Source: Clostridiales bacterium (lineage in GTDB: Bacteria > Bacillota > Clostridia > Saccharofermentanales > Saccharofermentanaceae). Taken from it: 44,415 bases of DNA. The translations under genes were made by a program, and so were the position numbers. The DNA lies in the NCBI GenBank assembly GCA_017550385.1, contig JAFZPJ010000035.1, positions 1-44,415 of the forward strand. Reading direction: 5' to 3'. Positions 33,284 to 36,651 of the stretch are shown piece by piece (the first letter of the stretch is position 1; every line of letters starts with the position of its first letter). The notes below the pieces were generated by a model. It did not search any database, was not told the DNA's origin, and worked only from the letters and a program-made list of their open reading frames with translations.

Positions 33284-34597
33284 TTATTTAAATCTTAAAT
33301 CCATCAGGCAGAACGGTCCTTCGCTCCCCGTTATCGTTCCTTTGACGATGTCTCCGGGCTTGATCTGCGCACTGTCTGCCCCAGCATCGACCTTCGTGCG
33401 GACATAGTTTGCGGTATAGCCTTCGGGCACGCCGCCCTCGGCAGTCTCGACGAGGACTTCTGCCGTCTTGCCGGTCATGCATGCCGCAAAATCCGCAGCA
33501 AGCTCATCCGAGATCCTTATAAGCTCTGCCGCGCGCGCCTTCCTGACGGACATATCCATCTGAGGCATCGCAGCTGCAACCGTCCCTTCCCTCTCTGAAT
33601 ACGGGAACACATGTATCTTCGCGAAAGCCGTATTCCGAGCGAAATCACAAGTCTCTTCGAACTCCGCTTCGGTCTCACCCGGGAAGCCCGTAATGATATC
33701 TGTAGTAAGCGACATATCGGGAAATCTCGACCTGAGCATGCTGACACGGTCTGCATACTGCGCCGTATCATACTTCCTGTTCATCCTCTTCAGAACGGTA
33801 TCTGACCCGCTCTGGAGCGACAGGTGGAAATGCGGGCACAGGTGCTTAAGTCCTGCAAGGCCGTCAATGAACCCTTCGGTCATGGACATGGGTTCGAGCG
33901 ATCCCAGGCCGAGCCTCTCAACTCCCGGTATGGAGTCGATCGCCTGAAGGAGCCTAAGGAGCGACATGATGTCTTCTCCCCTGTCCTTGCCGTATGAGCA
34001 AAGGTGGATGCCCGAGACGGTAATCTCTTTATAGCCTGATGCTGCGAGGAACTCAGCCTCCGCGACACAGGATTCGAAGCTCCTGCTCGCGACCCTTCCT
34101 CTTGCATAAGGGATCGCGCAGTATGTGCAGAAGTTATTGCATCCGTCTTCGACCTTCATGAATGCCCTGGTACCTTCAGGAGACAGGACAGAACCGAAAT
34201 CATGGTACTCGTCCTTCTTGGTCACTTCAGGTCTAACATGCGAAGCGGTATGTGCGTGCTCTTCCTGCTTTTTCAAATATTCCAGGACACGGTCTGCGAT
34301 GTTGTTCTTCTCGCGGTTGCCCACGATAAGGTCGCAGTCCAGCACACCGTCGGATAATTCCGCAGAGCATCCCGTTGCCACTACGACAGCATCGGGATTA
34401 AGCCTGGCCATCTTCCTGAGCATCTGATGAGATTTGCGGTCGGCCTCGCCCGTGACGGAGCACGTGTTGACCACGCAGCAGTCCGCCTCGGCAGCATTCT
34501 CCGTTACTTCGAAGCCCTTATCGAGAAACAGGCGCCGCATGGCGTCTGTCTCGTAACGGTTTACTCTGCATCCTAATGTCAGGAAATATACTTTCAA
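33284..34597 (-). CDS. mtaB: tRNA t6A37 methylthiotransferase MtaB
   Basis: Radical-SAM enzyme of 437 residues that converts t6A to ms2t6A at position 37 of tRNAs. It has the N-terminal UPF0004 domain with Cys10, Cys46 and Cys77 for the auxiliary iron-sulfur cluster, the radical-SAM CNNFCTYC (Cys153, 157, 160), and the C-terminal TRAM domain. The opening FLTLGCRVNRYETDAM marks MtaB rather than MiaB or RimO. The start is TTG, 3 bases after the aspS stop codon, so it is in the aspS operon. Confidence 0.95.
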   Translation of the reverse strand: MKVYFLTLGCRVNRYETDAMRRLFLDKGFEVTENAAEADCCVVNTCSVTGEADRKSHQMLRKMARLNPDAVVVATGCSAELSDGVLDCDLIVGNREKNNIADRVLEYLKKQEEHAHTASHVRPEVTKKDEYHDFGSVLSPEGTRAFMKVEDGCNNFCTYCAIPYARGRVASRSFESCVAEAEFLAASGYKEITVSGIHLCSYGKDRGEDIMSLLRLLQAIDSIPGVERLGLGSLEPMSMTEGFIDGLAGLKHLCPHFHLSLQSGSDTVLKRMNRKYDTAQYADRVSMLRSRFPDMSLTTDIITGFPGETEAEFEETCDFARNTAFAKIHVFPYSEREGTVAAAMPQMDMSVRKARAAELIRISDELAADFAACMTGKTAEVLVETAEGGVPEGYTANYVRTKVDAGADSAQIKPGDIVKGTITGSEGPFCLMDLRFK

Positions 34598-34600
34598 TTA

Positions 34601-36349
34601 TTACTGCCTTACCTTGATGTGAACTTCTCTGAGCTGCTGCTCGGTAACATCGCCGGGCGCACCGCAGAGGAGATCCTGTGCATTGCCGTTCATCGGGAAT
34701 GCGATTACTTCTCTGATGTTCTCTTCGCCTCTTAAGAGCATGATCATACGGTCAACACCGGGAGCCATTCCTGCGTGCGGCGGAGCACCGAACTGGAATG
34801 CGTTATAAAGGGCACCGAACTTTGTCTTGAGGTCTTCTTCGGAATATCCGGCGATCTCGAAAGCCTTCTTCATGATCTGCAGGTCATGGTTTCTGACCGC
34901 ACCGGAAGAGAGCTCTACGCCGTTGCAGATGATGTCATACTGATAAGCGAGGATATCGCCGGGTTCCTTTGTCTCGAGTGCTTCGAGGCCGCCCTGAGGC
35001 ATGGAGAAAGGATTGTGCGTAAAGATATACTTTCTTGTCTCGGGATCCTTCTCGAACATCGGGAAGTCGTTGACGAAGCAGAATCTGAACGCATTCTTCT
35101 CCGTAAGGTCAAGACGCTTGCCGAGCTCGTTACGGATGCCGCCTGCACACTCGCATGCACGTGCTTCGTTATCGGCGATGAAGAAGATCGTATCGCCTGC
35201 TTCGAGGCCTGCAAGATCCTTAAGTTCAGTCTTCATATCGTCAGGAATGAACTTGTCGATAGGTCCCTTGTAGCTCATGTCCTCGAGGACTTCGAGGTAG
35301 CCGAGGCCGCCCATTCCGAGGTCGTCCTGGGCGAACTTGAGCATCTTCTCGTGCTGGCCCTTGGACAGCTTGGCATGAACGTTGATCGCACGTACGGTCT
35401 TGCCGTGGAAAGCCTTGAACGTACATCTGGAGAAGAACTCCGTAACATCGATGATCCTCAGAGGATTCCTGAGGTCAGGCTTGTCCGTACCGAACTCGAG
35501 CATTGCCTGCTTGTAAGGGATCACCGGATAAGGAGCTGCTGTAACAACTGCGCCCTCGGGTGCGAACTTCTCAAAAGCGGCGGTAAGGACTTCCTCACCT
35601 GCTCTGAATACGTCTTCCTGCGTAGCAAAGCTCATCTCGAAGTCGAGCTGGTAGAACTCTCCCGGAGATCTGTCTGCTCTTGCATCCTCGTCTCTGAAGC
35701 AGGGAGCGATCTGGAAATACTTATCGAATCCGGATACCATCAGGAGCTGCTTGAACTGCTGAGGTGCCTGCGGGAGTGCATAGAACTTGCCCTTGAACTT
35801 TCTGGAAGGAACGATATAGTCTCTCGCGCCCTCAGGTGAAGAGCTCGTGAGGATAGGTGTCTGGATCTCAAGGAAGCCCATCTCCGTCATCTTCTGACGC
35901 AGGAATGCTATGACGTTGGAACGGAAGATGATGTTGTCCTTGACCTTCTGGTTACGAAGATCCAGATATCTGTACTTAAGTCTTACATCTTCTCTGATCT
36001 CCTTTGAAGTCATTACTTCGAACGGGAGCTGTGTATATACTTTGCCGAGCACGTCAACCTTGTGTGCCTCGAGCTCGATCGTACCTGTAGCGATCTTGGG
36101 GTTATATGTCTCCTCATCACGGTGCTCGATCTTACCTTCGATGGAGATGCACTCTTCCTTTACCAGTCCGTCGAGAAGAGTCGTGTCTCTCATTACGACC
36201 TGAAGCGTGCCGTACATGTCGCGGAGATCGATGAAGGATACGCCGCCGTGGTCTCTGATGTTCTCGATCCAGCCGCATACGCGGAGCTCTGATCCGACAT
36301 CGTTCTCGGAGATCTCACTGATGATCTTGTCTCTGTAGATGTTGCCCAT
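34601..36349 (-). CDS. aspS: Aspartyl-tRNA synthetase (probably non-discriminating)
   Basis: Class II synthetase of 582 residues. It has the OB-fold anticodon-binding domain (1–105), the bacterial-type insertion (GAD) domain (about 285–420), motif 2 FRDEDARADRSPGEF and motif 3 GMAPGVDRMIMLL. At the site following RRD in E. coli (a Leu), this enzyme has His34 in IRDHGG, the residue reported for non-discriminating AspRS of Pseudomonas aeruginosa; the Lys near E. coli position 81 is Glu here. Such enzymes also make Asp-tRNA(Asn) for amidation by GatCAB. It is controlled by a T-box leader whose likely specifier is an Asn codon. Confidence 0.95.
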   Translation of the reverse strand: MGNIYRDKIISEISENDVGSELRVCGWIENIRDHGGVSFIDLRDMYGTLQVVMRDTTLLDGLVKEECISIEGKIEHRDEETYNPKIATGTIELEAHKVDVLGKVYTQLPFEVMTSKEIREDVRLKYRYLDLRNQKVKDNIIFRSNVIAFLRQKMTEMGFLEIQTPILTSSSPEGARDYIVPSRKFKGKFYALPQAPQQFKQLLMVSGFDKYFQIAPCFRDEDARADRSPGEFYQLDFEMSFATQEDVFRAGEEVLTAAFEKFAPEGAVVTAAPYPVIPYKQAMLEFGTDKPDLRNPLRIIDVTEFFSRCTFKAFHGKTVRAINVHAKLSKGQHEKMLKFAQDDLGMGGLGYLEVLEDMSYKGPIDKFIPDDMKTELKDLAGLEAGDTIFFIADNEARACECAGGIRNELGKRLDLTEKNAFRFCFVNDFPMFEKDPETRKYIFTHNPFSMPQGGLEALETKEPGDILAYQYDIICNGVELSSGAVRNHDLQIMKKAFEIAGYSEEDLKTKFGALYNAFQFGAPPHAGMAPGVDRMIMLLRGEENIREVIAFPMNGNAQDLLCGAPGDVTEQQLREVHIKVRQ

Positions 36350-36379: not shown

Positions 36380-36429
36380 AAAACAAAAACGCCCCGAACT
36401 TAAAAGCCATGCTTTCCAAGTTCAGGACG
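36380..36429 (-). terminator. Regulated terminator of the aspS T-box
   Basis: A 12-bp stem including G–U pairs (CGTCCTGAACTT with AAGTTCGGGGCG), a 16-base loop and TTTTTGTTTT. Its left arm is the antiterminator partner. Confidence 0.93.
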
Positions 36430-36615
36430 ATATACTGCAAAGTATCCGCGGTGCCACCTGAATTATCCCGCATTAAGCGCGGGATCTCTCTTAAATTGTC
36501 TTGCTTGCTGTTAGAGTTGTTATTCGCCCGATTACTGCCGTCTGTCTTCCAGCCGATGGACAGGCTCTCTGTTGGTGTATTCCCGGGTTACTTCGGTCTC
36601 CGTCATCGCGTAGTA
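36380..36615 (-). ncRNA. T-box riboswitch leader of aspS
   Basis: A minus-strand leader of about 235 bases. The T-box AGGTGGCACCGCGG (36446–36459) is unmistakable. Stem I holds the AGTA loop-E strand (36592–36589), the conserved AGAGAG (36570–36565) and a distal hairpin CTGTC/GACAG. The facing loop strand reads GAA-T-AAC-A, so the likely specifier is AAC (36521–36519), an Asn codon. The antiterminator base TTCAGG/CCTGAA shares CCTGAA with the terminator, so the two folds exclude each other. Uncharged tRNA should stabilise antitermination and switch on aspS–mtaB. Confidence 0.93.
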
Positions 36616-36621
36616 TAGCGA

Positions 36622-36651
36622 ATATTACACTACATACACCGTTATTGTCAA
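36622..36651 (-). promoter_or_regulatory. Promoter of aspS T-box leader
   Basis: On the minus strand TTGACA (36651–36646), an 18-base spacer and TAATAT (36627–36622), directly after the rnr stop codon. Confidence 0.75.

Follow-up and report, generated by a model that had tools for sequence, protein, structure and literature searches.

An asparagine-codon T-box upstream of an aspartyl-tRNA synthetase gene in a Clostridiales bacterium and its predicted role in Asn-tRNA synthesis

The aspS locus and its leader

The window analysed here is the whole 44,415-nucleotide stretch of contig JAFZPJ010000035.1 (assembly GCA_017550385.1) from a Clostridiales bacterium of the family Saccharofermentanaceae, and our subject is the T-box leader of its aspS gene. 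This gene (34601..36349, on the minus strand, like all features below) encodes a bacterial-type aspartyl-tRNA synthetase (AspRS) of 582 residues with the segment RDHGGV, and is followed after 3 nucleotides by mtaB (33284..34597), which encodes a tRNA t6A37 methylthiotransferase. The two genes probably belong to the same operon; of 20 loci examined in the genus, 18 have mtaB next to aspS. A T-box with its antiterminator had been recognized upstream of aspS by the first-pass annotation, and this was confirmed with the Rfam model RF00230, which matches positions 36615-36420 over its full length (1-219) with 62.4 bits and an E-value of 2.1e-13 in the 361-base stretch searched. The score is below the curated cut-off of 93 bits, and a scan at the default cut-off lists two tRNAs only and not the T-box. 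Among the six T-box matches in the genome to which the window belongs, the aspS leader is the weakest (E-value 2.6e-13).

The leader contains a Stem I with a specifier loop and a distal AG motif, an antiterminator whose UGGN fits the discriminator base, and a competing terminator. Stem I (36505..36609) is built from a lower stem GGAG/CTCT (36601-36598 and 36516-36513), the specifier loop, an upper helix CCCG/CGGG (36587-36584 and 36530-36527) and a distal part (36542..36570) with AGAGAG at 36570-36565 and the helix CTGTC/GACAG at 36563-36559 and 36546-36542. One strand of the loop carries AGTA (36592-36589), while the other carries GAA (36525-36523), a spacer T (36522), the triplet AAC (36519..36521), an A (36518) and an extra base (36517), the last lying between the triplet with its A and the 3' side of the lower stem. 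A 27-nucleotide linker (36486..36512) replaces Stem II and Stem IIA/B and leads to Stem III (ATCCCGCG/TGCGGGAT; 36465..36485), which has GAGAG before it and AA after it and thereby fits the RRRNG-Stem III-AA motif described in a passage of PMC7778990. The antiterminator with the T-box sequence (36418..36461; UGGC bulge at 36456-36453) is overlapped on its 3' side by an intrinsic terminator with a T-run (36385..36429; hairpin 36429-36390, -22.8 kcal/mol), of which one was found against 0.3 expected by chance. With -40.2 kcal/mol for the terminator state and -27.3 kcal/mol for the antiterminator state, termination is favoured without ligand. A promoter-like site, TTGACA-18-TAATAT, lies at 36622..36651; it is a sigma-70-like consensus match only, in 10 of 12 positions, and one was found against 0.3 expected in shuffles.

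The specifier codon

The Rfam alignment sets GAA-U-AAC-A on the specifier columns of the aspS leader, with neither GAC nor GAT on the columns of the codon. From an alignment to the glyQS layout the first-pass annotation had proposed AAC as the specifier; every letter that it placed in the loop and the upper helix is found where it was put, and the model upholds its codon. It had described the lower stem as imperfect, probably because of the extra base on the 3' side. This base is present, but GGAG and CTCT pair, and AAC stands. Within the genus, AAC occupies the specifier site in all 19 T-box leaders on the group of aspS genes to which the window's copy belongs (hereafter the T clade), three of which (L057, L065 and L079) have GATAACA in place of GAATAACA.

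We also read the loop with a codon-agnostic rule (AGTA, distal AG motif, GAA-N-NNN-A), whose anchors were set without using pairing, in 89 leaders, for which the 80 best aspS loci found in named genomes were drawn on; 88 of the leaders are distinct, L045 and L151 being the same contig. The rule was callable in 51 leaders and returned AAC in 50 and GAT in one (L214). This GAT lies far upstream of Stem I, and Stem I of L214 reads GGG-AAC-A. Most of the 38 leaders not callable by the rule have a second Stem I type and read AAC by eye, not blind; L193 was not read. The comparison in related genomes that had been proposed along with the AAC reading thus came out in its favour. The helix that closes the loop covaries, with 81% of cells paired compared to 53% in 2000 shuffles (maximum 62%), and pairing falls to chance when the helix is slid by one or two bases, which fixes the register of the specifier loop. 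In Rfam alignments of nine relatives AAC falls in the codon columns in eight; that of L158 is shifted, the extra base being placed before the codon. Two earlier versions of the scan were not kept (AAC in 36 of 54 calls from 84 leaders, and in 48 of 59 calls from 90 leaders). Both accepted chance arms of 3-4 pairs, so that the calls other than AAC were placed beyond Stem I or anchored on the wrong GAA (as in L041, L057 and L079); the second also chose rows for their pairing, which biased the covariation figures. As a sanity check on the specifier reading, two other T-boxes of the window's genome, which precede a TrpB-like gene (L085:2024, contig C55) and trpE (L087:2259, contig C8), have loops that read UGG followed by A, consistent with Trp.

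Could the T-box instead read the Asp codon GAC and sense tRNA-Asp, as for a plain aspS? The controlled gene is annotated as aspartate--tRNA ligase, and GAC occurs five times in the leader, at 36604, 36598, 36542 and 36500 besides the copy to which the first-pass annotation had drawn attention. None of the five lies at the specifier site. The copy just mentioned sits, as had been claimed, in the paired distal helix CTGTC/GACAG, and the letters of this helix vary in relatives; moreover, the covarying helix puts the loop elsewhere and GAC appears in none of the codon-agnostic calls, so that we regard a tRNA-Asp switch as extremely improbable. Hardly more credible is a specifier shifted by one base to ACA (Thr), with the lower stem one base further off, as the placement of the extra base in L158, whose loop letters are identical, might suggest. 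Over the 23 leaders with the extra base the letter after AACA is A, G or C, whereas AAC-A is invariant; AAC is also the codon in all 26 resolvable leaders that lack this base, and a Thr signal would make no sense for aspS.

A third alternative comes from a known system. In 2012 and 2013 Saad et al. reportedly described how the operon for tRNA-dependent transamidation in Clostridium acetobutylicum carries a T-box whose codon is that of tRNA-Asn. The T-box of this operon figures in a passage of PMC4052509 and in titles in PMC4206432, and to the extent of these extracts the control of the amidation route by an Asn T-box is already known. The window's leader shares with it the tRNA-Asn codon and the control of a tRNA-dependent amidation route. 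As the C. acetobutylicum T-box is a published two-codon case, the loop of the window might likewise read two tRNAs (Asn and Glu), the more so as GAA stands beside AAC and some relatives (L043, L056 and L155) have GAAGAAC. In contrast to the two-codon T-box, in which the Asn and Glu codons overlap, the leader of the window reads GAATAAC with GAA and AAC non-overlapping, and gatB is on another contig. The window's leader lacks Stem II. GAA also belongs to the general Rfam consensus loop of T-boxes, and we therefore consider a double specifier quite unlikely. The specifier of the aspS T-box is AAC (Asn), and its predicted ligand accordingly tRNA-Asn and not tRNA-Asp.

Two aspartyl-tRNA synthetases and the route to Asn-tRNA

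The first-pass annotation had assumed a single aspS. When 40 relatives were searched for class II Asp/Lys/Asn synthetases, with fragments checked by BLAST, a different picture emerged: two AspRS genes exist in 22 of the 24 draft genomes of the genus (64-100% complete), both of them complete or nearly so in 20. In G008 and G018 a contig end truncates one copy, and the second AspRS is present only as fragments in G003 and G010. The remaining two genomes, G013 and G021, have one AspRS and one asparaginyl-tRNA synthetase (AsnRS), the latter named by NCBIfam in G013 and 56% identical to it in G021. The AspRS tree has three groups in the genus, and the window's copy falls in the T clade (22 genomes), which has RDHGGV; the other groups have RDLGGL or REVGAE/REVGSE (the G008 copy is cut at this motif). 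In an alignment of 102 AspRS rows (101 of the T clade and one partner as outgroup), 100 match RD.GG and all 100 read RDHGG, the rows without a match being L187 and the partner L037. A histidine in this segment marks non-discriminating AspRS, and the window's enzyme has it. The Protein Data Bank chains named Asp/Asn ligase likewise have RDHGGV, whereas the chain named tRNA(Asp) ligase has RDLGGL. The non-discriminating chains 4wj3, 5w25 and 4rmf (the first of which we take to be from Pseudomonas aeruginosa and the other two from Mycobacterium) are among the best four matches and share RDHGGV with the window's AspRS, which differs from them in being one of two in its genome. From these features we infer that the window's AspRS is non-discriminating or dedicated to tRNA-Asn.

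The T-box separates the two copies. T-box motifs precede the T-clade genes and the asnS gene of G013, and none was found before the 22 partner AspRS copies of the genus with two mismatches allowed; a stricter pattern misses T-boxes of the GAGTGG type, to which three of the five further T-boxes in the window's genome belong. Outside the genus no T-box was found in 19 readable of 20 partner loci, one of which, L248, is itself an RDHGG copy. The genome of L248 (G066) has three AspRS matches, the third copy being long (695-residue frame) with RDHGGV. This partition bears on whether the T-clade enzyme is a generalist that serves both tRNA-Asp and tRNA-Asn, the T-box using tRNA-Asn merely as a gauge. 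The resemblance of RDHGGV to enzymes named Asp/Asn ligases speaks for such a generalist, but a second AspRS without the T-box motif is kept, complete or as a fragment, in every T-clade genome of the genus, which suggests a division of labour; we hold the generalist role to be a serious possibility, though somewhat the less probable one. The copy that carries the T-box looks meant for tRNA-Asn.

The distribution of the other enzymes of Asn-tRNA synthesis points in the same direction. AsnRS occurs in only two of the 24 genomes, and AsnA in the same two (G013 and G021), which lack the T-clade AspRS, while AsnB is above the cut-off in G013 alone. No AsnRS, AsnA or above-cut-off AsnB was found in the 22 T-clade drafts of the genus; the drafts of the window's genome and of its near relative G006 gave no AsnRS-like match or fragment, no AsnA and no above-cut-off AsnB. 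This complementarity suggests that the T-clade AspRS stands in for AsnRS. GatB was found in 23 of the 24 genomes and in 21 of the 22 with the T clade; in the window's genome, where GatB was the one subunit searched for, it is on contig C24, other than the contig of aspS. The draft therefore has the features of the indirect pathway to Asn-tRNA, GatB being present and AsnRS not found. In G013 an AAC T-box precedes asnS-asnA (L062). The window's leader has the same codon as such asnS T-boxes and controls AspRS instead, and more broadly, the gene for the first step towards Asn-tRNA, be it asnS or an AspRS gene, tends to be the one with the Asn T-box.

Given the elements seen in the leader, the conservation of its codon, the partition of the two genes and the pattern of co-occurrence, we consider it very likely that a transcription-terminating tRNA-Asn T-box controls an AspRS that serves to aspartylate tRNA-Asn, the first step of Asn-tRNA synthesis. 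Uncharged tRNA-Asn would pair with AAC of Stem I through its GUU anticodon and with UGGC of the antiterminator through its 3' GCCA; the antiterminator pairing would block the terminator, so that aspS and mtaB are transcribed. The T-clade AspRS would then load aspartate on tRNA-Asn, which GatCAB, encoded elsewhere, would amidate. T-boxes reject any aminoacyl group according to a passage of PMC7583486, and Asp-tRNA-Asn and Asn-tRNA-Asn should hence both switch the gene off: tRNA-Asn bearing either aspartate or asparagine could not antiterminate, and the gene would be turned down once the enzyme has acted. The first-pass annotation had held that control by tRNA-Asn would make the supply of asparagine, and not of aspartate, the driver of the operon. 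This part of it is not upheld, since without an AsnRS the charge on tRNA-Asn would come only from AspRS, as aspartate, with amidation following on the tRNA. The signal would thus be the charging of tRNA-Asn with aspartate by AspRS, and free asparagine should matter little.

The UGGC bulge fits the discriminator G of tRNA-Asn, and both tRNA-Asn genes found in G006 carry a GUU anticodon and a discriminator G. One region of G006 (C9:18176-19243; L274 and L275) holds 11 densely packed tRNA genes, among them a second tRNA-Asn(GUU) whose body differs from that of the first, and looks like a mobile-element or phage tRNA array.

Several observations weigh against this assignment. tRNA-Asp also has a discriminator G, and hence this base cannot separate tRNA-Asn from tRNA-Asp. 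Stem I is not recovered in the minimum free-energy fold of the complete leader, where long-range pairing misfolds it, and the fold was discarded as evidence on the codon. Two of the 21 T-clade genes of the genus with upstream sequence, in G012 and G014, are without a T-box (that of G008 is cut at a contig end), and G022 has the T-clade gene and the T-box with no GatB match. Outside the genus, where at least two full AspRS matches are present in 33 of 36 T-clade genomes (G074 being G014 again), nine of the 36 hold in addition a match that is AsnRS-like in length and score, which makes the link looser. The window's genome is a draft, 84.6% complete and 6.3% contaminated, with no tRNA-Asn among 30 typed of 34 tRNA loci and no lysyl-tRNA synthetase found; its contig C58 carries a 160-residue AspRS fragment (L038), 90% identical to the partner AspRS on C26, and the draft may mix strains. 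The T-clade aspS genes without a T-box (L060 on G012_C18 and L064 on G014_C5) have a promoter-like TTGACA near the start codon.

In other families of the order, AAC T-boxes, read by eye, precede loci with AspRS and GatB (L132, and L134, L135 and L136 with a shorter AspRS). The shorter enzyme of L134, L135 and L136 (from G025, G031 and G034; 443-455 residues in L134 and L135) is archaeal-looking, with GatB and, by eye, GatC and GatA beside it behind the AAC T-box, and may be a second kind of AspRS recruited to the same route. Our literature search, which did not cover key comparative T-box surveys and is no proof of novelty, found no Asn T-box on aspS in this group and no description of a non-glycine T-box without Stem II.

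Leaders without Stem II and an extra loop base

The spacing between GAA and the T-box motif has a bimodal distribution, being 57-68 nucleotides in 20 of 50 leaders and at least 98 nucleotides in 30. It is 67 nucleotides in the window's leader, where folding of the sequence that follows the codon gives no stem but Stem III and the Stem II positions of the Rfam model are almost unfilled. The layout resembles that of Class II T-boxes such as Bacillus subtilis glyQS, with which the window shares a long Stem I with a distal AG motif, a linker where Stem II would be, and the succession of Stem III, antiterminator and terminator. Class II is described in a passage of PMC10482949 as glycine-specific, whereas the codon of the window is AAC and its loop is one base longer 3' of the codon. 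We therefore speak of a Class II-like layout, with the linker replacing Stem II but without the glycine specificity, and do not file the leader as Class II.

All 23 classic short Asn leaders (22 distinct), that of the window included, combine the absence of Stem II with one extra loop base 3' of the codon. The base is absent in all 26 resolvable long relatives, those of Stem II size; of five long rows in which it could not be placed, four read AACACT and L214 is called at the wrong site. Where no distance had been computed, leaders were labelled as long by eye. On the AspRS tree (made with FastTree, so that a transfer of leaders independent of the gene is possible) the short form represents four changes among 80 labelled rows, three of them among the 53 rows with the classic loop. 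The other short lineage (L196, L205 and L213) has the second Stem I type and is without the extra base. In its Stem I sequence L158 is similar to L160, its long sister, and this favours change in place. The pairs test for a coupling of Stem II loss with the extra base gives p 0.25 with three independent pairs (four with the type of L196, L205 and L213): the pattern is strong and its formal support weak, the changes being too few for significance.

Two broader explanations were rejected. The extra base is not a general trait of Class II, as eight short glyQ leaders allow the ordinary spacing, some of them also a shifted pairing (L280, L285, L287, L288, L293, L296, L299 and L304, resolved by eye, L287 and L288 being from one genus; the sample was the best 30 loci of 112 genomes with a match, and in its other members the T-box was absent, the linker was longer or the call was not clean). 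A tie between Stem II loss and a downstream mtaB was dropped, because mtaB was not found near aspS in the nine short loci outside the genus. In the Lachnospiraceae genome of L158, the aspS T-box is preceded at a distance of about 115 bases by a TwoAYGGAY RNA (99.3 bits; L158:2466-2631).

According to a passage of the review PMC7583486, only A-U-rich codons make Stem II essential, and its absence in glycine T-boxes is likely explained by the strong pairing of GGC. Among the AAC T-boxes, loss of the entire Stem II domain may have occurred three to four times, in three lineages together with an enlargement of the loop by one base, which could stabilise a weak codon-anticodon pairing; we give this account about as much credence as doubt. 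Natural AAC T-boxes without Stem II, together with a one-base change that recurs among them, bear on the proposed need for Stem II with A-U-rich codons. For the organism, the annotation of aspS hides the likely role of a gene that appears to replace asnS, as indicated by the codon of its T-box. In rumen and gut Clostridia with two AspRS copies, this codon may offer a simple guess at which of the two serves tRNA-Asn.
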